Of a stretch of 34,528 bases of DNA, positions 15,794 through 32,236 are shown in pieces. The notes under the pieces are model-generated. The model saw only the letters and a list, made by a program, of their open reading frames with translations, did no database searches and was not told where the DNA came from. Made by a program: the position numbers and the translations under genes. Source of the stretch: Gammaproteobacteria bacterium (lineage in GTDB: Bacteria; Pseudomonadota; Gammaproteobacteria; GRL18). How positions within the stretch are numbered: the first letter of the stretch is position 1; each line of letters starts with the position of its first letter. The stretch spans positions 1 through 34,528 of the forward strand of contig JALVAL010000138.1 in assembly GCA_027011205.1 (NCBI GenBank), read 5' to 3'.

Positions 15794-17943
15794 TGGCATA
15801 TCTACCAATAGCTCAAACAGTACCGCAATACTCTAATAACGGTGAGCCAGCTTCAGGCTATGTCCTGAAATTCTATGCCGCTGGAACATCGACCGTTATC
15901 AATTCAGCGACAGATAACACAGGAGCAACTCTGTTAAGCGATATAGTGCTAAATGCAGATGGCTATCCAGATCAGTCTGGCTCTATCTTCATTCCGCATA
16001 TAGACCAAGAGTACAAATTAGCATTATATCCTTCACAGTCTGCTGCTGACTCAAACACAGGCGCAACATGGTCTATCGATAATCTAGCTGCTGCGGTAAA
16101 TGCTGACACAAACAGCCAAGTTCAAGTATCAAGCAATGATGCGACACCAGGTTATTTGAACGGTAAACTCGTTGTAGGTTCAGGGATAGGGTTAACAGAG
16201 CAAAATGATGGCTCAGACGAAAGCCTTTTAATTACTAATCCGGTTAAAATTTATGACACTTTGGCTTTAATGGTCGCAGACGTTGCCAATATCTCTATTG
16301 GCGATTCTATAACACTGGATGGACGGAATACGAAAGGCGATGGCGGCGGGGCTACTTGGCGCGCAGTTGATGCTACCTTGGTTACGACTAATGGATATAA
16401 TATTGTAGCTGGAAATGCTACGGTTGCTTTTCAACTTTACACCAGTTTAATCCCATTCAGTCAGCATACCGTTATCCCCGCTCAGTGGGGCGCAGACGTA
16501 ACAGGTGCAACAGATTGCACTAGCGAAGTACACGCAGTTAGAGACTATGCAAAATCTTCTGGTGCTAACGTATATTTTACCAGAGGCACTTATCTCGGAA
16601 ACTTTGATTTTCAAGGCTTAAACGCTTCTCAATGGCAGAATCTTGTTATCTACGGTGACGGTATTAATACTGTGCTTAAACGTAATTCTGCACTGTCGCA
16701 GGTGCTTAGAGTTCGTGGTGAGTCATCTTCCGGTGATATGAGATACCCGCATGTATCTAACTTGATGATCGACGGTAACGGTAGCTCTACATCACCAGCT
16801 TTTGAAATCAATTATTGCCAAACCCCACAGGTAGAGAACGTCTATTTTCAGAATTGCCATAATGCAATGTTGATGGAAACTAAGGTTTATGATGGTTCTT
16901 TAACTCACGTCATATTCCGCGATCCAGACAGAACAGCGGCTGATGGCTACGCATTAAAACTTGGCGATAGCTGCAATTACATTACTATTGACGATTCTTA
17001 TTTCATCGGCCCAGGTGATGCTAATAAACACACATTGCTGTATTGCTCAGGACCGAATGATGCGCCAGGGTATCATCGGATTATAAATTCACAGTTTGAA
17101 AACTCGTCACATCCAATTACTTTAGAGGATGTTCGCGGCATCGTTCTTGATAACAATCATATCGAAGGACACGGGGCATTGACGACTGGCACGGCTGAGT
17201 TTCATGGAATTACAATTAAACCTGTTACCAATGGTGGCGCAAGTGCTTTCGGCTCTGGAATGGTTATCACTAATAATAAATTCTGGGGGAAATCATCCAC
17301 TACGGCTTTTGATGCGTTTATCAATATTGATCTCGATAGTGCTGGGCAGACTGAAACAGAGGATTTATTCGCTGGGTGGGTTGTTGAAGGCAACACTTTC
17401 GGAACGTCTGCGACGCAAGGCGGCGATGCTTATGGCACAAAGGCTGCTATCAGCTTAAAGGCATTTAGTGCTAAAGGACAAGTGTTGAGGTTAGGCAGTA
17501 ATAACTGGCACGCTAACGGCGCATCAGGTGGAGTGTTGAGAACAGATTTTATACTGACGCCTGCTAACACTGCTGGCAACTATGCCAGGTATACTCTTGA
17601 TAATGAGTCGCCTTTGTATGACCTATGGCTAAGTGGATCGAGAGAGATAGCAACACTTAACAAGGCTATGAGTGGTGGTATTATCACCACAGAGAACGCA
17701 ACTGCAAACGGATCACTGACCCTGCCTAGCGCATTGAAGAACATGGAGTACACTTTTATTGTGTCTGAGTCCTACTGGCTTGAGTTAGACCCGGCAACAG
17801 GTGAGAGATTTAGATTAGCTTCTGCTGCTGATAAATACATCCGTTCGTCAGGTTCTAGTGGCGATACGTTGAAGATATATTGCATCGAGGATGGAATATG
17901 GGATGTTGCATATTCACAAGGAACATGGACATATCAAGTCTAA
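15793..17943 (+). CDS. Tailspike with the same N-terminal domain and beta-helix-like body
   Basis: MAYLPIAQTVPQYSNNGEPASGYVLKFYAAGT...; DGRNTKGDGGGATWRAVD and repeated N-x-x-I/GNGSS strands typical of pectate-lyase-fold spikes. Confidence 0.88.
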   Translation: MAYLPIAQTVPQYSNNGEPASGYVLKFYAAGTSTVINSATDNTGATLLSDIVLNADGYPDQSGSIFIPHIDQEYKLALYPSQSAADSNTGATWSIDNLAAAVNADTNSQVQVSSNDATPGYLNGKLVVGSGIGLTEQNDGSDESLLITNPVKIYDTLALMVADVANISIGDSITLDGRNTKGDGGGATWRAVDATLVTTNGYNIVAGNATVAFQLYTSLIPFSQHTVIPAQWGADVTGATDCTSEVHAVRDYAKSSGANVYFTRGTYLGNFDFQGLNASQWQNLVIYGDGINTVLKRNSALSQVLRVRGESSSGDMRYPHVSNLMIDGNGSSTSPAFEINYCQTPQVENVYFQNCHNAMLMETKVYDGSLTHVIFRDPDRTAADGYALKLGDSCNYITIDDSYFIGPGDANKHTLLYCSGPNDAPGYHRIINSQFENSSHPITLEDVRGIVLDNNHIEGHGALTTGTAEFHGITIKPVTNGGASAFGSGMVITNNKFWGKSSTTAFDAFINIDLDSAGQTETEDLFAGWVVEGNTFGTSATQGGDAYGTKAAISLKAFSAKGQVLRLGSNNWHANGASGGVLRTDFILTPANTAGNYARYTLDNESPLYDLWLSGSREIATLNKAMSGGIITTENATANGSLTLPSALKNMEYTFIVSESYWLELDPATGERFRLASAADKYIRSSGSSGDTLKIYCIEDGIWDVAYSQGTWTYQV

Positions 17944-19573: not shown

Positions 19574-19665
19574 TGGTAGTTGGGGCGAGACTCGAACTCG
19601 CATCAGCCGATTATCTGTCGTTACGGGTTATAAACCCGCTGCTCTACCAGTTAAGCTACCCAACC
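19574..19665 (-). tRNA. tRNA, 89 nt plus encoded CCA, apparent anticodon UAU, long (21 nt) variable region
   Basis: Minus strand GGTTGGG TA GCTTAACTGGTAGAGC A GCGGG TTTATAA CCCGT [AACGACAGATAATCGGCTGAT] GCGAG TTCGAGT CTCGC CCCAACT A CCA; all four arms pair. Confidence 0.85.
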
Positions 19666-20081: not shown

Positions 20082-20108
20082 TTCATTCTCCTATAATTAT
20101 TAAAGTAA

Positions 20109-20165
20109 ACCTAACAATACGCGCAAGGCGCTATCGCTCGGACTCGCTGCGCTCTAATCATTAAA
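20109..20165 (+). repeat. attC-like site L2
   Basis: Plus: ACCTAAC aatacGCGCAAGGCGC...GCGCTCTAATCATTAAAC; ACCTAAC matches RYYYAAC exactly; near-copy of sites R5 and R8 with a 12-nt internal deletion. Confidence 0.7.
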
Positions 20166-20391
20166 CCAAATAGTCCAAACACTCACTAACATAATCAGGC
20201 TGAAACGGTGTGGATTCCATCACATCAACCTTATGACCTATGTCAATTTGTATCCGAACCATAGAGAATAACAAACTTACAGCGATCAGTAAAAGCACTG
20301 TTACCGTTTTCGATGCTTGCGGTTCTTCCTCGCCTTCGTCTTTTCGTACTGTCTCCACGGGTGCATCATCCAAAAATATAGCTGATGCCAA
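20161..20391 (-). CDS. Small single-TM protein
   Basis: 76 aa with TVTVLLLIAVSLLFSMVRI membrane segment; stop overlaps attC-like end. Confidence 0.6.
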   Translation of the reverse strand: MASAIFLDDAPVETVRKDEGEEEPQASKTVTVLLLIAVSLLFSMVRIQIDIGHKVDVMESTPFQPDYVSECLDYLV

Positions 20392-20524
20392 GACCTAGCA
20401 AGTAGATCATCACGCAGACTGGAACAAGGATTAGCGCTGAACGTGCAAACCATTCCCAGCGTTCAAGTTTTGCATCTTCAAACAGTTCGATTTGATCTTC
20501 GTCGATGTCTGTTGGTTGTTTCAT
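20366..20524 (-). CDS. Small single-TM protein (52 aa, not in ORF track)
   Basis: MKQPTDIDEDQIELFEDAKLERWEWFARSALILVPVCVMIYLLGLGISYIFG; overlaps start of 20161..20391. Confidence 0.6.
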   Translation of the reverse strand: MKQPTDIDEDQIELFEDAKLERWEWFARSALILVPVCVMIYLLGLGISYIFG

Positions 20525-20730
20525 TTATCACCTCTATATTTCTTGTGTACTCGGATAACCTCATGTAGCATATCCCGAACCTTCATCATTCGAGCTGGAT
20601 CAGGGTTATGATACTTACCTTGCAGCATTTTCATAAACCAGCTAATAGGCACGCCGGATGCCTTAACGGTCATCGGATAGCTGTAGTTTGCTAACCGCAT
20701 CAAGCCTTTTAGTTCTTCTGGTGTAATCAT
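20521..20730 (-). CDS. Small HTH-like DNA-binding protein
   Basis: 69 aa; MTVKASGVPISWFMKMLQGKYHNPDPARM resembles a helix-turn-helix. Confidence 0.5.
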   Translation of the reverse strand: MITPEELKGLMRLANYSYPMTVKASGVPISWFMKMLQGKYHNPDPARMMKVRDMLHEVIRVHKKYRGDK

Positions 20731-20750
20731 TGTTATTCCTTGTTTGGATT

Positions 20751-20800
20751 GTTTCTGTCTAATTCACCATCTAAAGATTCTGTCTAGTTAGATGTTATGT
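20751..20800 (+). repeat. Type-2 repeat (attC-like), copy 1
   Basis: Plus: tttctGTCTAATtcaccATCTAAagattctgtctagTTAGATGTTATGT. Confidence 0.55.
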
Positions 20801-21031
20801 GTATTGCACTTTGCCGTTACCATTATCATCCAGAACGTAACGGAATGCGCCCCAGTTCATAGCCATCAATTCGCAGTCGTCATCAAATACCTCCAGGAAA
20901 TTTCGCAATTCTCCGACTGTTGCAGGATGTAGCAATTGGTGATCTGTGTGTATTGGATCACGCCTTTCGCAAATGCAATTAGAGCATCGATATTCGAATT
21001 CTTTATCATTTAATGGGCATTCATGTAACAT
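20795..21031 (-). CDS. Hypothetical cassette protein with Cys motifs
   Basis: 78 aa; CSNCICERRDPIHTDHQLLHPATVGELRNFLEVFDDDCELMAMNWGAFRYVLD. Confidence 0.6.
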   Translation of the reverse strand: MLHECPLNDKEFEYRCSNCICERRDPIHTDHQLLHPATVGELRNFLEVFDDDCELMAMNWGAFRYVLDDNGNGKVQYT

Positions 21032-21067
21032 ATTTCACCTATAAATTGTCGAGTAGTGATTTCAAAC

Positions 21068-21128
21068 ACATAACAATCAATTTCAACGGAGCGCAAAAAC
21101 CGCGCCCGCTGAATAATGGTCGTTATAA
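21068..21128 (+). repeat. attC-like site L3
   Basis: Plus: ACATAAC aatcaatTTCAACGGAGCGC aaaaacc GCGCCCGCTGAA taatggtc GTTATAA. Confidence 0.7.
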
Positions 21129-21335
21129 TTTCAATAACCACAAATTAGCCATCCTTCGTCCAGCATTAGTTTTCTTCTGCTCGACCGGCTCAGACTCTTT
21201 CCCAACTCGCCATTGATCAATATAGCCTTTAAATATCTTGCTATGATCTGATGGGTTAAAGCGATTAAGCTGGTCATAGATAAATTCTCTATCTTCACGC
21301 TGTGGAAGCTTGTTTATGGCGTCTGTTAGGTTCAT
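21123..21335 (-). CDS. Hypothetical protein
   Basis: 70 aa; ATG overlaps SSB stop; its own stop sits in the attC-like end. Confidence 0.6.
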   Translation of the reverse strand: MNLTDAINKLPQREDREFIYDQLNRFNPSDHSKIFKGYIDQWRVGKESEPVEQKKTNAGRRMANLWLLKL

Positions 21336-21772
21336 TAAAATGGTAGTTTGTCGAATCCTTCATTAGCAGGTGGCGCATCATTCTGGTTTTGAGCTGGCAC
21401 AGGTTCTTGCTGCTGATTTGTTTGACCGTTGTTTGACTGGCTACTACCGAGCATTTGCATTTCATGTGCAACAATCTGAGTTGAATAACGATCCTGTCCG
21501 TCTTGGCCTTGATATTTGTTTGTCTGAATCTTTCCCTCGAAGTAAGCTTGCTGTCCTTTCTTCAAATACTGAGCAGCAATCTCGCCTAACTTTCCGAACA
21601 TAACGACACGATGCCATTCAGTTTTCTCTACCTTTTCTCCAGTATTCTTGTCTTTCCATGATTCACTGGTCGCTATAGAGACTGTGCAAATAGCTGATCC
21701 ACTCGATGAATATTTAACGTCAGGGTCTTGCCCTAATGTTCCGACAATAATGGCCTTATTAACGCCTTTCAT
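21335..21772 (-). CDS. ssb: Single-stranded DNA-binding protein
   Basis: [74 protein letters not shown]-terminus ...FDKLPF. Confidence 0.95.
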
Positions 21773-22189
21773 TTACATTAAACTCCTAATCTGTTTTTGA
21801 AGGTAATAAAATCTTTTTCTGTGCTGCAATAATTTATCTTGTTCTTTATCCGTCAACTTGCCTGCCTGCTCGTACATCATAATAATCCCATGCACTTCCT
21901 TTGCCTCGACTGATAGCTTTTCCAGTCTCCATTTGTCTTTGTCGAACTCTGACTGATTATCAAAGTACAGGTCTTTAACCTGCATCCCAACTGACAAACA
22001 AATGTCATCAATAGAGCAGCCAGCAAAGCAATGTAAACTAATCTTAACCTGGTTGGCAGAAATCATTAGCGAAGGTCGTCCATCTTCATGGGCTGGGCAT
22101 CTAGCCATGTACTTCCCGTTATGTAACTGTTTAACTTTTTCCAGCCGATCAAGGAAACTGTCGATCATACCATCTTCCGTCCTATCCAA
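21773..22189 (-). CDS. CHC2-type primase zinc-finger protein
   Basis: CPAHEDGRPSLMISANQVKISLHCFAGCSIDDICLSVGM. Confidence 0.8.
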   Translation of the reverse strand: MDRTEDGMIDSFLDRLEKVKQLHNGKYMARCPAHEDGRPSLMISANQVKISLHCFAGCSIDDICLSVGMQVKDLYFDNQSEFDKDKWRLEKLSVEAKEVHGIIMMYEQAGKLTDKEQDKLLQHRKRFYYLQKQIRSLM

Positions 22190-22539
22190 ACATCAATCGG
22201 CGACAGCTTCACCTCTACCAGCTTAGGCCGTGACTTAGAATAATGCCTGCGCATCTTCATGCAATGAGGATCAACACAACTTACCCGACGATCATAGACA
22301 AACTGAGTCTCAAGCCGTCCATTGTCTTTACGCTGGCGCTCAATTCTCTTTCCGCATTCTGGGCAGTCTTTATAAACAAAGTTTCTTTCGGCTTCTGCAT
22401 CCAGATATGCCTGCCTGCAAGCGTTATCGCAGAACTTGCGGTTTTTGTAAATAATCGAGCTTTCTTTGCCGCCAGATGGAAATACTTTCCGAACTATCGG
22501 CTTGTCGCAGTTTAAGCAATTTCCTTGTTTGTCTGCCAT
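22165..22539 (-). CDS. Zinc-binding hypothetical protein
   Basis: 124 aa; CLNCDKP, FCDNACRQAYLD, CPECGKRIERQ. Confidence 0.65.
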   Translation of the reverse strand: MADKQGNCLNCDKPIVRKVFPSGGKESSIIYKNRKFCDNACRQAYLDAEAERNFVYKDCPECGKRIERQRKDNGRLETQFVYDRRVSCVDPHCMKMRRHYSKSRPKLVEVKLSPIDVWIGRKMV

Positions 22540-22540
22540 G

Positions 22541-22589
22541 TTTCTGTCTAATTCTTGATTTAAAGATTCGGCCTAGTCGGATGTTAGCC
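22541..22589 (+). repeat. Type-2 repeat (attC-like), copy 2, adjoining a hairpin
   Basis: Plus: tttctGTCTAATtcttgatttaaagattcggcctagtcggatGTTAGCC, then GCCGCACA...TGTGCGGC at 22587-22613. Confidence 0.55.
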
Positions 22590-22623
22590 GCACATAGCTA
22601 AAACCTGTGCGGCGAAAAGAAAT

Positions 22624-22893
22624 TCAAAATAATAATTCATTAAGCCGTGAAATACGCTTACGGGCGTCTTCCGTTTTTTCCATAATAGCTCCGGCACCGC
22701 CATCTAGGATGTCTCTAAGAGTAGGAAGCGACTCTTTTTCTTTTGCGAATTCATGATCTGTTGGTGACGGCCCTTCGATTCTGTGTATTAGATCATCGAG
22801 TTGTTGTGAAATAGTGCCAATTTGTTGAATGGCATCATGTATTTCGATGTGTTTTTCTCTTCTTATTGCTTCGTTGCTAATTTGTTCAATCAT
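22624..22893 (-). CDS. Coiled-coil hypothetical protein
   Basis: 89 aa ORF in array. Confidence 0.55.
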   Translation of the reverse strand: MIEQISNEAIRREKHIEIHDAIQQIGTISQQLDDLIHRIEGPSPTDHEFAKEKESLPTLRDILDGGAGAIMEKTEDARKRISRLNELLF

Positions 22894-22919
22894 AATTATA
22901 CCTTTACTTTAATTGCAGC

Positions 22920-22987
22920 GGCTAACAAGTCATTTCACAGGACAGCGTTCCGCTGCGCTCCACTTGCCTGTAAATTCGGTCGTTAGC
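22920..22987 (+). repeat. attC-like site L4
   Basis: Plus: GGCTAAC aagtcATTTCACAGGACAGCG ttccgctgcgctccacttg CCTGTAAAT tcggtc GTTAGC; pairing ATTT[C]ACAGG[A]CA with extrahelical C and A. Confidence 0.75.
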
Positions 22988-23219
22988 TAGTAATATCCCC
23001 AAAAGGTCTAAATATCTTATAGTGGCCTTTTTTATTTCTGGTTACTAATTTCTGTTTAACCATTTCTTTGCATACCGGAGAGCCAACTGAGCTGTGACCA
23101 CCATTTATTACCCGTCCAATCTCGGTTGGTGAAATCCAATCTCTACCCTCCCGCTGAGAAACACCATTCATGTATCGAATTGCTATATCTATTTTTTCTT
23201 GCATTTTCATTAAAATCAC
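22983..23219 (-). CDS. Winged-helix-like small protein
   Basis: 78 aa; ISPTEIGRVINGGHSSVGSPVCKEMVKQKLVTRNKKGHYKI. Confidence 0.65.
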   Translation of the reverse strand: MILMKMQEKIDIAIRYMNGVSQREGRDWISPTEIGRVINGGHSSVGSPVCKEMVKQKLVTRNKKGHYKIFRPFGDITS

Positions 23220-23237
23220 CTATCTCGTTTAAATTCT

Positions 23238-23300
23238 AGCTAACAATACGCACCAGCGGAGCGCTAAAACCGCGCTCGCTGTTGTGCTCGGTCGTTATAC
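23238..23300 (+). repeat. attC-like site L5
   Basis: Plus: AGCTAAC aataCGCACCAGCGGAGCGC taaaacc GCGCTCGCTGTTGTGCTCG gtc GTTATAC. Confidence 0.75.
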
Positions 23301-23359
23301 ATTCAAAATACTCTCAACAATCTCCGGCACTTTAGCAACTACTCTATCATCCCGGTTGA

Positions 23360-24124
23360 TCATTTCTTACTTAAAATATCTGCCAGAATATTCTTGTATT
23401 GCCTTTTAGCACCTACTGGAATATCCGAGCCAAACATATTAATCACAGCAATATATTCATCGTTTGACAACCGCTTATACGCCTCATGGTACTTATCATA
23501 ATCTTCTGAATCAGAATCAATAAGACTTCTGAAATAAGCGTTGGCTTTTTGAATCTTTTTAACATCAAGCAACTCACCAGAAGTCTCACCAATAAGAATT
23601 GGTACTCTATTCCACTGAAACCGAACACGTCCGTTATAATCAGTTGCCTTAAGACTATCTAGTAAGCCGTCTTTAAAAGATGATTCCCAGCGCCACAAAT
23701 CAAGACGCAATTCCCATGATTGATGAAACTTGCCATTACGCTCTTGATACTCATTTTTGAACAATTTAACAGAGATTCGCGGGTAATCGTAAAGCTCAAG
23801 ACCGATCCCCCAGTTAAAACAGGCTCTCTTGAATGAATCGGATGCTAGACCTTTCTGAGCTTCAGCCATTGACTCTGTACCTGTATCCTCCTTAGAAACC
23901 CAATGCTTTCTATCTTCGTTCCAGATAGAAACTGTGCAATTGTGGTTATCCCTCGAATGCTCACGCTTCCATCCAAGTTGACCGCAAATATCATTAAGCC
24001 GATTAATGTCAACCCTGGCATCCTTGTACGCAAGGATAGTCGCATACCCGCCGTTATTGATAGACTGAATGCGGAAGTCTATTTGGTCGATTGTAAGCGG
24101 TTTAGTTAGATTCTTGATATCCAT
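23360..24124 (-). CDS. Rad52/22-family single-strand annealing protein
   Basis: MDIKNLTKPLTIDQIDFRIQSINNGGYATILAYKDARVDINRLNDICGQLGWKREH...SDSFKRACFNWGIGLELYDYPRI; ATG at 24124 has SD gagg. Confidence 0.85.
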   Translation of the reverse strand: MDIKNLTKPLTIDQIDFRIQSINNGGYATILAYKDARVDINRLNDICGQLGWKREHSRDNHNCTVSIWNEDRKHWVSKEDTGTESMAEAQKGLASDSFKRACFNWGIGLELYDYPRISVKLFKNEYQERNGKFHQSWELRLDLWRWESSFKDGLLDSLKATDYNGRVRFQWNRVPILIGETSGELLDVKKIQKANAYFRSLIDSDSEDYDKYHEAYKRLSNDEYIAVINMFGSDIPVGAKRQYKNILADILSKK

Positions 24125-24200
24125 CTTCTTCCTCACTATACTCTGGTTCTGGTAACGCTTCGTCTGTTTCCGGTACATTCTCTAAGTACCACTCGCCCAT
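24102..24200 (-). CDS. Very small acidic ORF (32 aa) overlapping the annealase start
   Basis: MGEWYLENVPETDEALPEPEYSEEEDGYQESN; not in ORF track. Confidence 0.4.
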   Translation of the reverse strand: MGEWYLENVPETDEALPEPEYSEEEDGYQESN

Positions 24201-24205
24201 CTTGC

Positions 24206-24379
24206 TCACTTCTCACCTCGTCTATCGCGTCGATACGCTTCTACTTTTAGTTTGCACTGGTGGTTGTTCTTGCTGATCTCCACCATTCGATTATAAGCTG
24301 CTGTAAACTCAAGGTAATCATCGTCGATGATAACCATAGCTGGCAGCTTTACTATTCTCCATCTGTCGGGTCTGCTCAT
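24206..24379 (-). CDS. Small hypothetical protein (57 aa)
   Basis: MSRPDRWRIVKLPAMVIIDDDYLEFTAAYNRMVEISKNNHQCKLKVEAYRRDRRGEK; not in ORF track. Confidence 0.55.
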   Translation of the reverse strand: MSRPDRWRIVKLPAMVIIDDDYLEFTAAYNRMVEISKNNHQCKLKVEAYRRDRRGEK

Positions 24380-24384
24380 TGTTC

Positions 24385-24564
24385 CTACGCCTTAAACATA
24401 TCTATTAAAACATTGATAAACCCGTCGATCTTGTCTATCACGAAATCGCCGAAGCCTTTTTCTTGCCTTGTCTCAGGTATCATCATTTCTTCCTGCTTAC
24501 AATTCTTCTTATAATATTTAAGGTGCGCTATAGCTTCTTTTTCACTTAGTCCGAAGTTACACAT
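24385..24564 (-). CDS. Small hypothetical protein (59 aa)
   Basis: MCNFGLSEKEAIAHLKYYKKNCKQEEMMIPETRQEKGFGDFVIDKIDGFINVLIDMFKA; not in ORF track. Confidence 0.55.
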   Translation of the reverse strand: MCNFGLSEKEAIAHLKYYKKNCKQEEMMIPETRQEKGFGDFVIDKIDGFINVLIDMFKA

Positions 24565-24576
24565 TCTTTATATCTC

Positions 24577-24611
24577 GTTTAACATAGAATCTGTAGATAC
24601 CACTGTTAGCT
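24577..24611 (+). repeat. Short attC-like site L6
   Basis: Plus: GTTTAAC (exact RYYYAAC) ... GTTAGCT, only 35 bp long. Confidence 0.45.
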
Positions 24612-24902
24612 TTGTAAATCAGTTTCTTTTAAGTTCCTCACGATTTCAAGCATATTGCTAACATTCCGAATATTTTTTTCAGCCACCTCTATTGCTTTTT
24701 TATTATTGTCAAGTTTCTTTGTAAGCAATTCTACGAGCTTCATTCTCGCATCTTCAAAAATATCAAAATACCATTGCCAGTTTGTTTCTTTTCTTTCAGC
24801 TATTTTGTTTTTAAAATAAACTGTTTTTTCTGTTTCCCTTTCAACTTCTACCATTTTTATTTCATTTAAGTTAATAGTATTAACTTTATATTTCGTTATC
24901 AT
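24606..24902 (-). CDS. Coiled-coil hypothetical protein
   Basis: 98 aa ORF between two attC-like sites. Confidence 0.55.
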   Translation of the reverse strand: MITKYKVNTINLNEIKMVEVERETEKTVYFKNKIAERKETNWQWYFDIFEDARMKLVELLTKKLDNNKKAIEVAEKNIRNVSNMLEIVRNLKETDLQS

Positions 24903-24910
24903 TTCTTTTA

Positions 24911-24965
24911 CCCTGTAAATTAAAGAGCTTCACTGCGTTACGCCTTTTTAATTCGGGCGTTAGCT
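24911..24965 (+). repeat. attC-like site L7 (one end degenerate)
   Basis: Plus: ...TAAATTAAAGagcttcactgcgttacgccttTTTAATTcgggcGTTAGCT. Confidence 0.5.
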
Positions 24966-25220
24966 GTCTTTAAACGATTCAATATGCTTGCCGAACTCAT
25001 GGCGTAACGTCTCTAACTGGCTGCGCTTAACCAGCCAATCCCTTACCCGTCCTGGTAGGCTTCTATAGCCTTTGTATGCTAGATTGCCGTCCATATATAA
25101 CCACACCGCTTCCATCTCAACATCATCGCCATCCATATAATATTCAACGGTAATTTGAGCATCGAAAGACTGGCCAAACACTTCAAAATCTTGATAGAAG
25201 TCGTAAGTATGGTAGATCAT
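24960..25220 (-). CDS. Hypothetical cassette protein
   Basis: 86 aa, ATGA overlap with upstream gene. Confidence 0.6.
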   Translation of the reverse strand: MIYHTYDFYQDFEVFGQSFDAQITVEYYMDGDDVEMEAVWLYMDGNLAYKGYRSLPGRVRDWLVKRSQLETLRHEFGKHIESFKDS

Positions 25221-25525
25221 TTTTCAACCTCCGATTTAAGAATCTTTTCTGCAATCTCTCGTGCAGCATCACTCAATGCGAGATCGAATTTGCTGGCCGC
25301 TTCGGAGTAGATAGCGCCATTGAAAGCCTGACGGGTGTATTCTTCCCATGCAGCAACACCTTCGTCGGATAGGTATCCAAGAACATCGTCCCATTTATAC
25401 CCTTTATATTCTTCGCCATTAGCAGTAGCTGTCAGAATATCATCCACCATACTGTTCAGATATTCTTCCTCTAGCTCTGCTTCCTTGCTATATCCACTGT
25501 CAGGGTCTTTTGTTGCGTTATACAT
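25217..25525 (-). CDS. Hypothetical early protein
   Basis: MYNATKDPDSGYSKEAELEEEYLNSM...; ATG at 25525 with SD agaggtga. Confidence 0.65.
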   Translation of the reverse strand: MYNATKDPDSGYSKEAELEEEYLNSMVDDILTATANGEEYKGYKWDDVLGYLSDEGVAAWEEYTRQAFNGAIYSEAASKFDLALSDAAREIAEKILKSEVEK

Positions 25526-25558
25526 TTTGTCACCTCTTTTATTTAATTTATGGCTTGA

Positions 25559-25586
25559 AGTATACCACCAAAATGATATAATGCAA
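25559..25586 (-). promoter_or_regulatory. Candidate leftward early promoter
   Basis: Minus TTGCAT-16 nt-TATACT upstream of the leftward operon. Confidence 0.6.
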
Positions 25587-25617
25587 GACATAGAAACGAA
25601 AAATTATATAAAAATAT

Positions 25618-25646
25618 TTGAGGTTAGAGATAATGCGCGTTAACAT
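25618..25646 (+). promoter_or_regulatory. Candidate rightward early promoter
   Basis: TTGAGG-17 nt-TAACAT upstream of NinB. Confidence 0.5.
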
Positions 25647-25710
25647 AAACCAACTTCGAGGCCGGCATCCGGTTTTCCAAGTCACCTCCTCACAGGATAT
25701 CCCCTGTATT

Positions 25711-25738
25711 CCCCTCCCGATTTTAGGAGGGGCTTTTT
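25711..25738 (+). promoter_or_regulatory. NinB leader hairpin (terminator-like and covering the SD)
   Basis: CCCCTCC-cgatttta-GGAGGGG-c-TTTTT; AGGAGG inside the hairpin is the SD for ATG 25740. Confidence 0.7.
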
Positions 25739-25739
25739 A

Positions 25740-26033
25740 ATGCCTTCTCGCACCCCAAAACAAAACCGAGCATACTGGAAGTATCTGCGCTCTTTAGCGG
25801 ATGATCTGAATGATGCCGGTATCGACTTTAAAACGTCTGTACGACTTCCTGTGCGGTTTACTGCTGAGAACATGCACGAGTATATGTTCACGCCAGTTAT
25901 GCAGTCTTTATACCCTGAAAAGAAGTCAACGACTGAGCTATCAACTGTAGAGATGCAGGAAGTCTACGATACGTTTAATGCTGCTGTAGGTCAGCGGTTT
26001 GGAGTTAGCCGTAACTGGCCTAGTAATAGATAA
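25740..26033 (+). CDS. ninB: NinB-like recombination protein
   Basis: 97 aa; PKQNRAYWKYLRSLADDLNDAGIDFKTSVRLPVRFTAENMHEYMFTPVMQSLYPEKKSTTELSTVEMQEVYDTF. Confidence 0.75.
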   Translation: MPSRTPKQNRAYWKYLRSLADDLNDAGIDFKTSVRLPVRFTAENMHEYMFTPVMQSLYPEKKSTTELSTVEMQEVYDTFNAAVGQRFGVSRNWPSNR

Positions 26034-26101
26034 CGATTGAGCGTACTTGAAATTTATGGAGCGAAGCGGAATAAAATTTCCAGTAGCGCGACTTGTTAGC
26101 A
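26029..26101 (-). repeat. attC-like site R1
   Basis: TAACgattgaGCGTACTTGAAATTTAT ggagcgaagcgg AATAAAATTTCCAGTAGCGCgacttGTTAGC; arms align as GCG-TACTTGAAATTT-AT / GCGCTACTGGAAATTTTAT. Confidence 0.75.
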
Positions 26102-26111
26102 AGATTTTAAT

Positions 26112-26359
26112 TTAGACGCTCTGCCGCTGCGGACACCGAAGATGGCAACACCGGCAACAGAGCTGAGCTGAGGGAAACAAGACGCGAAACCCATTGGATG
26201 CACAAGTAGCGATACGCGCCCGAATAGAACCGGGACTCCCGTTAGGCGGGGATAGCGAAAAATGCGGCAGGATGGGCAATTTGACTGTGACAGGTAATGC
26301 TGGCGACGAGCTTGACCGAATCAGAGGCGGTAACTAGGTTTACCGGGCAGAGCGTCTAA
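26112..26359 (+). ncRNA. Structured RNA candidate (~248 nt) closed by a 14-bp perfect stem
   Basis: TTAGACGCTCTGCC (26112-26125) pairs with GGCAGAGCGTCTAA (26346-26359); internal hairpins CCCGaatagaacCGGG and TCCCGttaggCGGGGA; no ORF. Confidence 0.65.
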
Positions 26360-26376
26360 CTTAGGAGAGAGCAAAT

Positions 26377-26517
26377 ATGAAAGAATTAGCCAAGAAAATA
26401 CTATGCTTGATTCGTCCACTAAAACCGTGCCGGGTTGATGATTGCTATGTGTACACTGCCCGCAGAGACAAAAACGGGCAGCCTTACTGCTCGGTTTGCA
26501 GAGATGAATCTTGCTAA
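26377..26517 (+). CDS. Small Cys-rich protein (46 aa)
   Basis: MKELAKKILCLIRPLKPCRVDDCYVYTARRDKNGQPYCSVCRDESC; SD taggagag; not in ORF track. Confidence 0.6.
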   Translation: MKELAKKILCLIRPLKPCRVDDCYVYTARRDKNGQPYCSVCRDESC

Positions 26518-26525
26518 CTGACAGA

Positions 26526-26597
26526 GTTTAACGGGCGCATAGATATTGAGCTACGGAGCACGCTGGTTTAGCGCTCCGTTTTAGAACGCATTATTAT
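26526..26597 (-). repeat. attC-like site R2 (distal end degenerate)
   Basis: GTTTAAC cgggcgcat...ACGGAGCacgctggttta GCGCTCCGTtttagaacgcattatta. Confidence 0.55.
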
Positions 26598-26624
26598 ATT
26601 ACGATATTTTACGAGGAGTACAAA

Positions 26625-26843
26625 ATGAAAGATATTCTTACTGTTGTTTTTGGTGGTGTTGCGATTTCCGTACTAATAATCGCTCTGTTTTTAATTGGGC
26701 CTATTCTAGTTTTATGGGTGATCAACAGCCTTGCAGAGGCTGGCGGATTATCATTTTATATAGAGCACAATATGTGGAATTACTGGGTTGCTTTTATTCT
26801 ACTACTGTTAGTCAGGGGTGGCTCAAGTAGTAGCCGTAAGTAA
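26625..26843 (+). CDS. Small two-TM membrane protein
   Basis: 72 aa; VVFGGVAISVLIIALFLIGPILVLWVI and YWVAFILLLLVRGG. Confidence 0.65.
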   Translation: MKDILTVVFGGVAISVLIIALFLIGPILVLWVINSLAEAGGLSFYIEHNMWNYWVAFILLLLVRGGSSSSRK

Positions 26844-26914
26844 TATAACGCCAGAGCTGTGCTGACGACACGAAGCGCAGCGTAGTGGTGGTCAGAACGA
26901 GCGAATTGTTATAA
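26843..26914 (-). repeat. attC-like site R3
   Basis: ATATAAC gccagagctgtgCTGAC gacacgaagcgcagcgtagtggtg GTCAG aacgagcgaatt GTTATAA. Confidence 0.65.
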
Positions 26915-26932
26915 CTACGTTTGGTAAGAATT

Positions 26933-27391
26933 ATGGGATATGCAGAAAATACAAGTGTAAGCACAGAAAAAAGTAGGGCTGAAATTGAACGAACTTTGCA
27001 GAGATACAATGCCGACCAGTTTATGTATGGCTGGGATGCGGATAAAGCTGTGGTGGGTTTTCGTATGGCCGGAAGACAGATTCGTTTCTTGCTGCCAATT
27101 CCAGACAAAGAAGATTGCCGGTTTACCCATACACCAACTGGCAAGGTACGAAAGCAGAACGCCGCATACAACGAATGGGAGCAAGCCTGCCGCCAAAAAT
27201 GGCGAGCACTGAGTCTTGTTATTAAAGCAAAACTGGAAGCTGTTGAAGCTGGTATTGCAATATTTGAAGATGAATTTATGGCAAACATCGTGCTACCGAA
27301 CGGTGATACAGTAAGCCAATTCATGCTGCCGCAGATCGCCGCAGCGTATGACCAGGGCGAAATGCCGAAGATGCTGCCAGATTTACGGTAG
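26933..27391 (+). CDS. Hypothetical cassette protein (~152 aa)
   Basis: MGYAENTSVSTEKSRAEIERTLQRYNADQFMYGWDADKAVVGFRMAGRQIRFLLPIPDKEDCRFTHTPTGKVRKQNAAYNEWEQACRQKWRALSLVIKAKLEAVEAGI. Confidence 0.75.
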   Translation: MGYAENTSVSTEKSRAEIERTLQRYNADQFMYGWDADKAVVGFRMAGRQIRFLLPIPDKEDCRFTHTPTGKVRKQNAAYNEWEQACRQKWRALSLVIKAKLEAVEAGIAIFEDEFMANIVLPNGDTVSQFMLPQIAAAYDQGEMPKMLPDLR

Positions 27392-27397
27392 TAGTAG

Positions 27398-27457
27398 TTA
27401 TAACGACCCAGCACAGCGAGCGCGGTTTTAGCGCTCTGCTGGTACGTATTGTTATAA
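27398..27457 (-). repeat. attC-like site R4
   Basis: TTATAAC gaccCAGCACAGCGAGCGC ggtttta GCGCTCTGCTGGTACGtatt GTTATAA. Confidence 0.75.
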
Positions 27458-27478
27458 CGATTTTAATTTGGAGAAACT

Positions 27479-27781
27479 ATGAGTTTATTTCAGTGTGAAA
27501 TCTGTGGATGTGTAGAGAATACAGCCACATCATCTCAAGGCTGTACAGGCGGAATGGAACGACTTTTCGACTGGACGGGCTTAGAAGATTTAAAAGGGAA
27601 AAAACTTTGTAGTGTTTGCGCGCCAAGAATTTATCGTGACGGTACGAGCACATGGTTTGGGAGGTGGCATGGAGAGTTTAAGCGAACGTTTTTACCGAAG
27701 GGAAAATTTAAAACAAACAGGCAAGGTAACCTTGAACACATTGAAACAGGTGAAACAGATTACAGAAAATATGCAATCTGA
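27479..27781 (+). CDS. Zinc-ribbon-like cassette protein
   Basis: 100 aa; FQCEICGCVENTATSSQGC...KLCSVCAPRIY. Confidence 0.7.
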   Translation: MSLFQCEICGCVENTATSSQGCTGGMERLFDWTGLEDLKGKKLCSVCAPRIYRDGTSTWFGRWHGEFKRTFLPKGKFKTNRQGNLEHIETGETDYRKYAI

Positions 27782-27788
27782 TTTCGTT

Positions 27789-27856
27789 ATAACGACCAGA
27801 GCGAAGCGGCGAGCGCAGCGAGTCCGAGCGATAGCGACTTGCGCGTATTGTTATGT
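27789..27856 (-). repeat. attC-like site R5
   Basis: ATAACgaccaGAGCGAAGCGGC gagcgcagcgagtccgagcgata GCGACTTGCGCgtattGTTATGT; 65/67 identical to 31301-31367. Confidence 0.78.
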
Positions 27857-27878
27857 GTATATTTTTGGAGATTAGGAA

Positions 27879-28148
27879 ATGACTAATTTTATTGGCTTAG
27901 TTTCTGAGTTAGCTGGACGCAATGACATATCAATGAAACCAGAAAAAGAGATTGATTTTGGAAATCTGAATATAGAAATGCTTGACAAACAAGCTCGCCG
28001 GTTAGCAGATAATGAAGTTTTCGTTTTTATTGATGGAGAAGAGTCAGAAAGTGACGAAATCACAGAAAAGCATGGCCTTGAAGAACTCAATAGAGTATTA
28101 AACAGAATTTTTGATGGTGAACTGTATGAAAAATTTTATTACACATAA
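27879..28148 (+). CDS. Hypothetical cassette protein
   Basis: 89 aa with good SD (ttggagattagg). Confidence 0.6.
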   Translation: MTNFIGLVSELAGRNDISMKPEKEIDFGNLNIEMLDKQARRLADNEVFVFIDGEESESDEITEKHGLEELNRVLNRIFDGELYEKFYYT

Positions 28149-28192
28149 CATCTGGTTATACCGAATCACAAAATAGTGAAATAGACAGAAAC
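28143..28192 (-). repeat. Type-2 repeat (attC-like), copy 3
   Basis: ACATAACATCTggttataccgaatcacaaaatagtgaaaTAGACAGAAAC. Confidence 0.5.
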
Positions 28193-28211
28193 TACCTATC
28201 TAGGATATAAA

Positions 28212-28454
28212 ATGCCAAAATGGAACAAACCAGAAACAGCGCCTAGAAACGGCCATCTGGTCTTTGCCAACTTAGGATGGCCGTGGCCTATTACCGCCTG
28301 CTGGAACGAATACGAGCATAGATGGGTTTATGCTATGGCTCAGTTAAACATAGTGGATAGGCAGGAAGACCCATATTTTGAAAACGAGTATGCGGAAGAT
28401 AGCGAGCTATTGGGCTGGTTGCCGCTTCCAGATGTTAACGAGGTGAAGAAGTGA
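28212..28454 (+). CDS. DUF551-like small protein
   Basis: 80 aa ending ELLGWLPLPDVNEVKK. Confidence 0.55.
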   Translation: MPKWNKPETAPRNGHLVFANLGWPWPITACWNEYEHRWVYAMAQLNIVDRQEDPYFENEYAEDSELLGWLPLPDVNEVKK

Positions 28455-28633
28455 GCATATTAGAACGATTAAATTATTATAATGGTCGTGTTCTTGAGCT
28501 AGATGTTTCTGTCGATAAAAAGACTGTTAATTTAATGGAGCAATGTGACCAATATTTTAGCGTCGATTTAACTAAAGAAGAATTTGGCAAACTGATAAAA
28601 GAACTAAATCAAATTTACGACAGCATGGAATAG
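28451..28633 (+). CDS. Small hypothetical protein
   Basis: 60 aa, 4-bp overlap with upstream ORF. Confidence 0.55.
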   Translation: MSILERLNYYNGRVLELDVSVDKKTVNLMEQCDQYFSVDLTKEEFGKLIKELNQIYDSME

Positions 28634-28634
28634 A

Positions 28635-28790
28635 ATGAAATATATCTGCTATCGCTGCCTACAGGTTATGGATATATCAGAACTTCGACCAGGTGCAAAG
28701 ATGAAAGGGCTTTCTGTAGAGTTAAGCAGAAAGATTAAAATGTGCAAGTCTTGCAAGTGCAGGACGTTTTATAAAATAGGTGATATATGA
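28635..28790 (+). CDS. Small zinc-ribbon-like protein (51 aa)
   Basis: MKYICYRCLQVMDISELRPGAKMKGLSVELSRKIKMCKSCKCRTFYKIGDI; ATGA overlap with next ORF; not in ORF track. Confidence 0.65.
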   Translation: MKYICYRCLQVMDISELRPGAKMKGLSVELSRKIKMCKSCKCRTFYKIGDI

Positions 28791-28978
28791 ATGAAAATGA
28801 ACCGATCAGCATCCGACCAGTGGATAATGGGTTTATTGTTACAAAAATTTACGGTAATAGTAACGGTGAACTAATCTCTGACAAGAGTATTAAAGTTTTC
28901 AGGAGCATGAATGAGTTATGCAGATTTATTCAAGAACACTTTGAACATCGTGGGCTGTGTATTGAGAGTGACACATAA
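28787..28978 (+). CDS. Small hypothetical protein
   Basis: 63 aa ORF, overlaps upstream stop. Confidence 0.55.
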   Translation: MNENEPISIRPVDNGFIVTKIYGNSNGELISDKSIKVFRSMNELCRFIQEHFEHRGLCIESDT

Positions 28979-28985
28979 ACATACC

Positions 28986-29039
28986 GCATAAAAAATAAAC
29001 CCCGACTTGATCGAAAAACCTAGTCGGGGTATTATTCAA
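28986..29039 (-). terminator. Strong hairpin with U-rich tail on the minus strand
   Basis: ccccgact (29000-29007) / agtcgggg (29032-29039); minus reading gives GGGGTTTATTTTTTATG after the stem. Confidence 0.7.
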
Positions 29040-29092
29040 GGGTCGGAGTTAGCAGCTCCTACAAAATCAGGTTTTAACGGAACCGATTCATA
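28990..29092 (-). ncRNA. Candidate small RNA on the minus strand
   Basis: Minus TTGATT-16 nt-TAAGAT (29126 to 29099) placed ~100 nt before the terminator hairpin; GGAG/CTCC hairpin between. Confidence 0.35.
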
Positions 29093-29159
29093 AGTTAAAT
29101 CTTATCAATCCCTCCAGAAAAATCAAGTTTTCTTATAGTTGCTGCTTTAATTTGTTACT

Positions 29160-29420
29160 TTTGTTAACACTTTCCGATTATCTCACTCTACCGCCAGCCG
29201 TCTAGCGAAAGCAAACCGGCAAAACATAGCCCAGGTTATGTGGATAAGAAGGGGCGGTCACATTGTCGCAACAATAGGCAATGGGGATAAACAGGCGTAA
29301 TGGTGATTTGGTGTTAATTGACTGCTGACCAGAACTCAAGCAGCACTGCAAACAAAGCAGATTAAAAAATAATCGGTCGCTTAGTAGCGAGAACGTCCGG
29401 CAAGACGGTGTAAACTGTGT
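29160..29420. other. Candidate replication origin region
   Basis: Noncoding; perfect DnaA box TTATCCACA on minus (29239-29247) and near-match TTATCCCCA (29282-29290); AT-rich hairpin GATTAaaaaaTAATC. Confidence 0.4.
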
Positions 29421-29518
29421 CCTGATAAATAGAGTTAGATAACCAGTTGCATTGAATATGCAGGATTGGGTTTAGATCACCAAACCCTTCAAGTGATTAG
29501 TATTGTCTGGAGAATTGT

Positions 29519-29983
29519 ATGAATAGAAAATTGATGCTTGCTAGAAGGTATTTCACAGCTTATCTGGATTTGAAGCCTAATGTATCCAACGCAGCAATGA
29601 TCCAGCAGCTTATATGTAAAGGGGTTATCCATGAATCAAAAACAAAGCGTAAATCTAGCAAAGTATTGATTGAGATTTACCGCGCATTAAGCAAAACACA
29701 TAAAATAGTGTTAAGCAAAAAGAAAGGATATGTTAAGCCATCTAGTGAATTTTACAGGTCTTCGCAATGGCGGAAATTACGGTACCAAGTTTTAAAGAAA
29801 TTTGATGGGTGCTGTTGTTTATGCGGGAGGTCAAAACGTGAGCATAATATTGTTATTCATGTAGATCATATTAAACCTAGGAGCAAGTATCCTGAGTTAG
29901 AATTAGAAGAAAGCAATCTCCAGCTTTTATGCGAGGATTGTAATTTAGGGAAGTCAAATCGGGATTCTATAGATTGGCGATAA
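29519..29983 (+). CDS. HNH endonuclease
   Basis: GCCCLCGRSKREHNIVIHVDHIKPRSKYPELELEESNLQLLCEDCNLGKSNRD. Confidence 0.88.
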   Translation: MNRKLMLARRYFTAYLDLKPNVSNAAMIQQLICKGVIHESKTKRKSSKVLIEIYRALSKTHKIVLSKKKGYVKPSSEFYRSSQWRKLRYQVLKKFDGCCCLCGRSKREHNIVIHVDHIKPRSKYPELELEESNLQLLCEDCNLGKSNRDSIDWR

Positions 29984-30050
29984 TTGATAATCAGAGAGCG
30001 TTGCACTTCCTGCGGTAGATTAGACAAAAAGATAATTAAAGGTAAGTGGT

Positions 30051-30278
30051 ATGAACAAAATAACAGTTAAAATAAACGGTAAACTAAAAAAGTGTGACAA
30101 CCATTTTTCTGATCACAAAACCAGCTCTCAAGATATGCTTTCTGGTAATAAAATGGCGGATGAAATAGGAGATTTATATATTGATCATAGAATTAACTTG
30201 CCAGAAGTTCAATGGATGCAAGTTATGAAAGCGTTACGGATACATGGTTTTAAAATTACTTTTGTGAGGAACAAATGA
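30051..30278 (+). CDS. Small hypothetical protein
   Basis: 75 aa ORF with SD aaaggtaag. Confidence 0.55.
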   Translation: MNKITVKINGKLKKCDNHFSDHKTSSQDMLSGNKMADEIGDLYIDHRINLPEVQWMQVMKALRIHGFKITFVRNK

Positions 30279-30481
30279 GAAAATTAAAACAAGCAGGAAT
30301 TGCACTGGCCGAAGCTGCTGGCAGATATATTGGCGCTATAGCATACATTGATGATGTTCTTTACGATATCTATAAATACAGCCAAGAAGATTACGACAAA
30401 GCTGATAAAGAAGCAGATATAAGCAAAATAAATTTAATATCTGCAATCGAGAACTTTAACGAGGTATCTAGCAATGGCTGA
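30275..30481 (+). CDS. Small hypothetical protein
   Basis: 68 aa, ATGA overlap. Confidence 0.55.
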   Translation: MRKLKQAGIALAEAAGRYIGAIAYIDDVLYDIYKYSQEDYDKADKEADISKINLISAIENFNEVSSNG

Positions 30482-30725
30482 TATAACAATGTGCAGCTCT
30501 CGGCTATGCCCAAGACGCGAGACTTGCTATCGGGTAAGTGCAAAGCATAGCTTATGGCAGGCATGGTCTGATTTCTTTCGGCCGGAATGTCAGTGCGATA
30601 TGTTTATCAAGGCAAAGGCTGAATGCGAGGAAACAGGCGTACACTGGCCGGTGTTTAATCCGACAGACAATCAAGACTATTGCGAGACGTGTGGGAAGCG
30701 GATGGTCGATATTAATGCTAAATAA
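30474..30725 (+). CDS. Small Cys-rich protein
   Basis: 83 aa; CSSRLCPRRETCYRV, CQCDMF, YCETCGKRM. Confidence 0.65.
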   Translation: MADITMCSSRLCPRRETCYRVSAKHSLWQAWSDFFRPECQCDMFIKAKAECEETGVHWPVFNPTDNQDYCETCGKRMVDINAK

Positions 30726-30793
30726 CGATCAAGTGTCACCGGATTTCATGGAGCGCAGCGGAATGAAAATCCGTGTGTACGCGCTTGTTATGT
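30721..30793 (-). repeat. attC-like site R7
   Basis: ATAACgatcaaGTGTCACCGGATTTCAT ggagcgcagcgg AATGAAAATCCGTGTGTACgcgcttGTTATGT; homologous to site R1. Confidence 0.75.
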
Positions 30794-30880
30794 TGTTTTT
30801 TGAAATTATCTCTTGAGTTATTAGTAACGCAGTGTATTATTACTAATAACAGTGATAAACACGCAAAAGGGGGTAAGGAA

Positions 30881-31147
30881 ATGTTTGAACAAGATTTTGA
30901 CAATATGTTTGCTGACGTTTGGTTTGATGAGCGTGATTGCGCATACGCCTATGAGGAAGGTATAGGTGAGTTTGATGCTGGGGCCAATACCATGCACTCC
31001 AATGATGCGGTTATCGCTGTTCGCAAGTATGACCGCGCCCTCCGTGGTACGCATTATGCAGGCAAGCGTAACCGCCTCCGCGCACAGCGGAATAGTTTGG
31101 TTACTGCCTTTGGGCCGGAAATGGTTGAGCGCGTTGGTTATGACTAA
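30881..31147 (+). CDS. Hypothetical cassette protein
   Basis: MFEQDFDNMFADVWFDERDCAYAYEEGIGEFDAGANTMHSNDAVIAVRKYDRALRGTHYAGKRNRLRAQ; internal ATG of track ORF with SD gggtaaggaa. Confidence 0.65.
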   Translation: MFEQDFDNMFADVWFDERDCAYAYEEGIGEFDAGANTMHSNDAVIAVRKYDRALRGTHYAGKRNRLRAQRNSLVTAFGPEMVERVGYD

Positions 31148-31304
31148 GCGAAAGACGGCAAGCACCAAAGATGGTGCTTGCCGTCAAGCGAAATTTAGAA
31201 AAGAACAAAAGAAACTTGGCAGGCGCGGAAGGCTGTATTACTTGACCGATGAGGAAAAAGAGATGGTGGATTCGTTTTTGTACAAGCTACGCGAATCGCC
31301 ATAA
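31140..31304 (+). CDS. Small basic protein (54 aa) containing a 13-bp inverted repeat
   Basis: MTKRKTASTKDGACRQAKFRKEQKKLGRRGRLYYLTDEEKEMVDSFLYKLRESP; overlaps previous stop. Confidence 0.55.
   Translation: MTKRKTASTKDGACRQAKFRKEQKKLGRRGRLYYLTDEEKEMVDSFLYKLRESP
31154..31185. repeat. Perfect 13-bp inverted repeat, 6-nt loop
   Basis: GACGGCAAGCACC aaagat GGTGCTTGCCGTC. Confidence 0.95.
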
Positions 31305-31368
31305 CGACAAGAGCGAAGCGGCGAGCGCAGCGAGTCCGAGCGGTAGCGACTTGCGCGTATTGTTATGC
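31301..31368 (-). repeat. attC-like site R8
   Basis: ATAACgacaagagcgaagcggcgagcgcagcgagtccgagcggtagcgacttgcgcgtattGTTATGC; near-identical to R5. Confidence 0.78.
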
Positions 31369-31393
31369 GTAATTTTTTACTTTAGAGGTAGAT

Positions 31394-31657
31394 ATGTGCA
31401 ACTGCAAAAACATGGCCGGCTACGGCGACGATAGCTGGGGAAAACACCACCACATAGCCTGCGAAAAATACGCCACAGAAAAGAACCCCTACCTGTTTTA
31501 TTACGAGGAAGGTGTTGAGGCATGGGTTCCCGTACCAGAAAAAACTGAACATTTAATTGTTGTCGACGATCAGCTAGATAATGATGAACGAATGCAACTT
31601 TATTTTAGACGAATAGACATGACCGACAAACAAATTGCAGAAATGCCTTGTGATTAA
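31394..31657 (+). CDS. Hypothetical cassette protein
   Basis: 87 aa, MCNCKNMAGYGDDSWGKHHHIACEKYATEKNPYLFYYEEGVEAWVPVPEK; SD agaggtag. Confidence 0.65.
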   Translation: MCNCKNMAGYGDDSWGKHHHIACEKYATEKNPYLFYYEEGVEAWVPVPEKTEHLIVVDDQLDNDERMQLYFRRIDMTDKQIAEMPCD

Positions 31658-31658
31658 C

Positions 31659-31682
31659 ACATAACATCTATTTAGACAGAAA
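31659..31682 (-). repeat. Type-2 repeat, copy 4 (short form)
   Basis: ACATAACATCTatTTAGACAGAAA. Confidence 0.5.
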
Positions 31683-32236
31683 TGCAAAAGCTGAAAACCT
31701 GTAGACTCTGCAAGTCGAAGTTCCGGCAGTTCAGCTCTATGGTTCCTGTGTGTTTGGACTGTGCGCCTGCTTATGCTTTGGAGAAAGCGAAGAAGAAGCG
31801 GAAGGCGAAACAGGTAGAAAAGAAGCGTGCGACTAAGCTCAATGATAGAGCATATCTTGTTAAAAGAGCACAATTCTACTGTAATAAATGGGTAAGATTG
31901 CGTGATGAAGGCAAGTCGTGTGTTTCATGTGGAACAACAGACGCCAAGTTCCATGCAGGACATTACAGGCCAACGTCAAGCAGCCCAGAACATAGGTTCA
32001 ATGAGTACAATCTTGCAGCGCAATGCCCACAATGCAATCTGTTTAAATCTGGGAATTTAACCGAGTATCGAAAGGAACTGATTAACCGGATCGGGCTTCA
32101 GCATGTAGAGCATCTTGAAAGCAAAACACCAACACAGAAGCTGGATTGTGCCGATTTGTTGGAGATAATCGAATATTACAAAGGGAAGATTAAGGCAAAA
32201 GAAAACCCGCTAGACCATAAAGGAAAGGCGGGCTAA
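31682..32236 (+). CDS. ninG: NinG/Rap-like recombination protein
   Basis: CRLCKSKF...CLDCAPAYALEKAKKKRKAK...CVSCGTTDAKFHAGHYRPTSSSPEHRFNEYNLAAQCPQCNLFKSGNLTEYRKELI. Confidence 0.88.
   Translation: MQKLKTCRLCKSKFRQFSSMVPVCLDCAPAYALEKAKKKRKAKQVEKKRATKLNDRAYLVKRAQFYCNKWVRLRDEGKSCVSCGTTDAKFHAGHYRPTSSSPEHRFNEYNLAAQCPQCNLFKSGNLTEYRKELINRIGLQHVEHLESKTPTQKLDCADLLEIIEYYKGKIKAKENPLDHKGKAG
32197..32232 (-). terminator. Minus-strand terminator inside the ninG 3' end
   Basis: Minus CCCGCctttcctttatggtctaGCGGGTTTTCTTTT. Confidence 0.55.

Follow-up and report, generated by a model that had tools for sequence, protein, structure and literature searches.

An orphan stem-closed non-coding segment in a predicted phage integron cassette, and its possible role in hiding a Shine-Dalgarno sequence

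What is a 248-nt protein-free segment, closed by a long stem, doing on a phage genome between an attC-like site and a tiny Cys-rich ORF? Integron cassettes are usually regarded as promoterless protein genes, and a preliminary description of this locus took the segment to be a structured non-coding RNA carried as cassette cargo. We have analyzed it within its window, the whole 34,528-nt contig JALVAL010000138.1, and tentatively propose that the segment acts in cis, as a non-coding leader that masks the Shine-Dalgarno (SD) sequence of the 46-aa ORF.

The contig was placed in a bacterial bin (as G000:C138) and is the IMG/VR phage genome IMGVR_UViG_3300028030_000037, with a 121-bp end repeat indicating that it is circular. 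Its genes include those of a P22-like head module (terminase, portal, major head protein, and head closure Hc3) together with those of a helicase, NinG, and a Rad52-like annealing protein. The portal has 39% identity to its counterpart in phage CBW1004C-Prop1 and 33-37% to the portals of the Pseudanabaena phages Pan3, Pam5, and Pam1. Two neighboring genes, probably for tail fibers, have 95-nt starts (14816-14910 and 15793-15887) that are 77% identical and resemble a duplication. A stretch of about 500 nt that lacks a long ORF (28990-29518) contains a terminator-like GC stem (ccccgacttg...agtcgggg), and immediately downstream lies the gene of a 154-aa phage HNH endonuclease (29519-29983); a search for an HNH-associated RNA 5' of that gene gave no Rfam match in permissive mode.

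The 34.4-kb circular phage carries about 11 attC-like sites across 20100-31400, forming two divergent groups, one on the - strand (20.1-23.3 kb) and one on the + strand (26.0-31.4 kb). When the 11 sites are aligned in gene orientation, the 5' arm contains TAACGa and the 3' arm TTGTTA (ATTATT in one site) with a central hairpin between them, and every site is preceded by an ORF; judged by sequence, the array appears to be large and CALIN-like. Phage-borne attC clusters without an integrase (CALINs) are already known, and five of six phage attC sites tested were active with IntI1 (PMC9892861, section 3.4). No integron integrase was identified in the subset of phage proteins searched. The bin encodes at least two full-length enzymes above the curated cut-off (C615:14251-15195 and C130:9390-10346) and a third that is split in two pieces (C94:696-1636), and thus cassettes have a source close by and the phage and the bin have integron biology in common. 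The phage attC sequences had no match elsewhere in the bin, and the attC core GCGCAGCGAGTCCGAGCG gave only chance coding matches in IMG/VR. A tRNA-Ile gene (anticodon TAT, 19574-19665, - strand) lies where the cassette-bearing region of the - strand ends. Other ORF junctions (20721-20797 and 22510-22586 on the - strand, 28131-28192 and 31657-31689 on the + strand) share a second motif, TAACATCT..GACAGAA.., that is repeated at these gene boundaries and is distinct from the attC-like sites.

The attC-like site reported just before the segment is real and is one of these 11. It closes the upstream cassette (26028-26101, + strand), contains R''-like ATAAC and R'-like TTGTTAGC, and has the same TAACGa...TTGTTA arms as the 10 others. 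The segment-bearing cassette starts after G26095 and spans 26096 to about 26591, in which a short leader, TTAGCAAGATTTTAAT (26096-26111, + strand), is followed by the segment and then by the 46-aa ORF. It ends in a degenerate attC-like site (26528-26591, + strand; identified in the alignment, with boundaries set by eye) that has an R''-like GTTTAAC and, where GTT... is expected, an R'-like core of ATTATAT. Flanked by these two sites, in the same orientation as the array, the segment is predicted to be integron cassette cargo. The ORF itself (MKELAKKILCLIRPLKPCRVDDCYVYTARRDKNGQPYCSVCRDESC; 26377-26517, + strand) has its own SD sequence, as had been described, in the form of GGAG (26364-26367) 9 nt upstream and within UUAGGAG (26361-26367, + strand). 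It has no relative in Pfam, PHROG, or PDB, and none that is credible in INPHARED, IMG/VR, or 387 genomes.

The single solid feature of this orphan segment is its closing stem, P1 (TTAGACGCTCTGCC / GGCAGAGCGTCTAA), whose 14 perfect base pairs join a 5' arm at 26112-26125 to a 3' arm at 26346-26359 on the + strand, with 220 nt between them, confirming the preliminary description. Longer arms are complementary at 17 of 18 positions, and the predicted pairing probability of P1 is 0.98. No other inverted repeat in the window ranks above P1, which scores 15 compared to an average of 11.6 for the maxima of shuffled windows. That score was reached in one of 40 block-shuffled windows, and dinucleotide shuffles give an expectation of about 0.13 perfect 14-mer pairs within 300 nt per window, with two observed. 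Such a rate leaves some room for the repeat having arisen by chance or by a local inversion-duplication within intergenic DNA that is decayed or random, and the absence of homologues is consistent with this. However, the repeat ends exactly at the SD sequence and adjoins the attC-like site, and phage genomes are compact and seldom retain 250 unused nucleotides, and we consider this the least probable of the explanations. The arms also resemble TTTAGAC/GTCTAAC cores, and an inside-out attC was rejected as their order is wrong for attC.

The segment is indeed free of protein-coding sequence, as it lacks ORFs of at least 60 aa and its codon score is at the level of shuffles in all six frames, which also rejects a decayed protein gene. 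Its G+C content is above that of the surroundings. Its purine content and AT skew, although high, do not stand out within this phage, as 12 and 6%, respectively, of windows are equally extreme. The long closing stem, the non-coding and purine-rich 220-nt interior (26126-26345, + strand) with its GNRA-like loops, and a folding z score for the whole segment of -2.2 to -2.5 would all suit a stand-alone structured RNA that represents a new family, travels as cassette cargo, and is freed from the transcript by processing. The z score of the whole segment is, however, due to P1, as the interior alone has a z score of +1.5, and when the P1 arms were fixed and the interior was shuffled, 160 of 200 shuffles folded equally low or lower. 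The impression of complexity conveyed by the preliminary description is therefore not borne out. The small hairpins that it listed can all be drawn, but a high pairing probability (0.93 each) is predicted only for CCCAUU/GAUGGG (26190-26195/26271-26276) and CGGUAA/UUACCG (26328-26333/26340-26345), both on the + strand; CCCG/CGGG reaches 0.62, UCCCGU/GCGGGG 0.53, and the other inner pairings are ambiguous. The predicted energy lends no support to a tertiary or pseudoknotted RNA, although it would not by itself argue against one.

The search for relatives also weighs against a stand-alone RNA. Rfam covariance models at the gathering cut-off matched no family at the segment, a tRNA elsewhere being the sole match, and in permissive mode only GA-cis appeared (18 bits versus a cut-off of 34.7, E 0.43), in agreement with the earlier judgment that the segment could not be placed in a family. 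HEARO, GOLLD, ROOL, raiA, and group I and II introns, among others, did not reach the gathering cut-off. BLAST searches with the cassette or the segment gave only chance matches, 17-49 nt long in INPHARED, PLSDB, and E. coli and no longer than 38 nt in the bin and in 24 genomes of the family and 387 of the class. A covariance model, R1, built from the one sequence and its predicted structure, found no homologue in 24 order, 387 class, and 399 phylum genomes (about 800 in total) or in related phage contigs, with about 60 related phage loci also searched; its best outside matches, of 24.2 bits (L307), within a tyrosine-recombinase-like gene, and 17.9 bits (L308), antisense to a 505-aa gene, were rejected as chance. 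Four scans of IMG/VR (segment or arms) and one of GTDB (arms) used exact short patterns only. In IMG/VR the patterns ACAAGACGCGAAAC, GCAATTTGACTGTGA, and GATAGCGAAAAATGCGG gave additional matches without flanking similarity and the arm pair matched this contig alone, while in GTDB the arm pair was found at five loci that are protein-coding-like, shared among relatives, and unrelated to the segment. The absence of relatives is hence real, if incomplete, within the collections searched, and as far as these searches reached there are no covarying homologues, the outcome that the preliminary description had named as speaking against its own proposal. What stands of that proposal is a non-coding, stem-closed, and cassette-borne segment, and what does not is an interior structured beyond its shuffles. 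We therefore regard a stand-alone RNA as unlikely, and as still less likely the fuller version in which a new family of structured RNA of about 250 nt, as cargo of a phage integron cassette, controls or partners the tiny zinc-finger-like protein of the same cassette.

What argues for a cis-acting leader is the position of the stem, which is the top-ranked inverted repeat in the window and ends immediately 5' of the SD sequence, and the non-coding segment shares its strand with the ORF and the cassette genes. No terminator follows the segment and no promoter-like site lies just upstream of it, and co-transcription with the ORF is hence probable; a stand-alone RNA would be without a promoter or terminator of its own. 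Beyond P1, and separated from it by one mismatch, UUUUAA in the cassette leader (26105-26110) can form six weak pairs with UUAGGA (26361-26366), a helix that we term P0 and that is predicted to mask the first three bases of the SD sequence. The predicted probability that these bases, GGA, are unpaired is 0.01-0.03 with the element and 0.60-0.63 when the 248-nt element is omitted from the fold. On the proposed mechanism, the cassette would be transcribed from outside, P1 would form in the transcript and bring the AU-rich cassette leader beside the SD sequence, and P0 would then cover it and keep the ORF off until P0 was opened or cut, and with its 20 pairs the helix formed by P0 and P1 may be long enough to serve as a substrate for RNase III. 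The analysis shows P1, the non-coding nature and cassette position of the segment, the lack of a terminator, and a predicted masking of the SD sequence, whereas transcription, regulation, and any trigger are inferred. Several points count against a leader: its interior structure is at the level of shuffles, which is not the case for most ligand-binding leaders, a perfect 14-bp stem is too stable for easy switching, the masking comes from one thermodynamic prediction and involves a weak AU/GU helix, and no relative backs the ORF or its expression. Moreover, as there are no homologues, neither SD masking nor any base pair is backed by covariation.

The cassette leader points to another possibility. 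The cassette at 27449 has a homologous leader, GTTATAACGATTTTAATTTGGAG (83% identity to GTTAGCAAGATTTTAATTTAG here), and in that cassette the SD sequence follows at once (GATTTTAATTTGGAG), whereas here GATTTTAATTTAG and GGAG are separated by the segment. The segment might then be a small non-autonomous MITE-like DNA element, with the stem arms as terminal inverted repeats, that was inserted into an ordinary cassette leader and whose interior has no RNA function. A direct repeat of TA (or TTAG) at the arm junctions, the higher G+C content of the segment, and the lack of interior structure above shuffles would all fit an insertion, but a target duplication of 2-4 bp could be chance, the bin contains no second copy, the paired arms are absent from the 24 family genomes, and neither GTDB nor IMG/VR revealed them at a related locus. 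The homology of the leader favors an inserted element and the P0 pairing favors a regulatory leader, and both can hold.

We therefore place the SD-masking leader first, although tentatively, followed by the inserted element bounded by inverted repeats, which is possible but less probable, by the stand-alone RNA, and last by chance or decayed DNA. If the segment is an RNA, it would show that structured non-coding RNA can move between bacteria and phages in integron cassettes, such that expression control travels with the gene. As an inserted DNA element, it would provide a routine but useful case of phage cassette interruption.

Among known systems, HEARO/omega RNA, GOLLD, and ROOL are likewise stem-closed, non-coding, and found in a mobile or phage setting, and the preliminary description had compared the segment to such ornate RNAs. 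That likeness does not extend to an Rfam match or to structure above shuffles. GOLLD and ROOL are also much longer, and the IscB-type gene associated with HEARO is absent here, as had been noted, with no IscB-type match among the neighboring proteins (25740-28454). A group II intron was rejected, as there is no Rfam match and no GUGYG start, and so was an RNA anti-CRISPR, with no repeat-like match in the bin. In retrons, an inverted repeat of 12-14 bp (a1/a2) closes an msr-msd RNA of 150-250 nt, and P1 is a comparable repeat closing a segment in that size range; a retron was rejected as there is no reverse transcriptase among the large or neighboring proteins searched and no msd hairpin that is both long and stable. 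Bacterial MITEs such as Correia and Nezha have terminal inverted repeats, are non-coding and 100-250 bp in length, and can have a TA target repeat. The segment resembles them in its terminal inverted repeats, its lack of coding capacity, and its possible TA repeat, and differs in being single-copy, with no related pair of repeats (as exact arms) in the bin, the family, GTDB, or IMG/VR. In the part of PMC9892861 used here, the cassettes of phage CALINs encode proteins, such as methyltransferases, and no non-coding cassette segment is reported. Those arrays and the one described herein both have attC-like sites after small ORFs, no integron integrase identified, and sites in two orientations.
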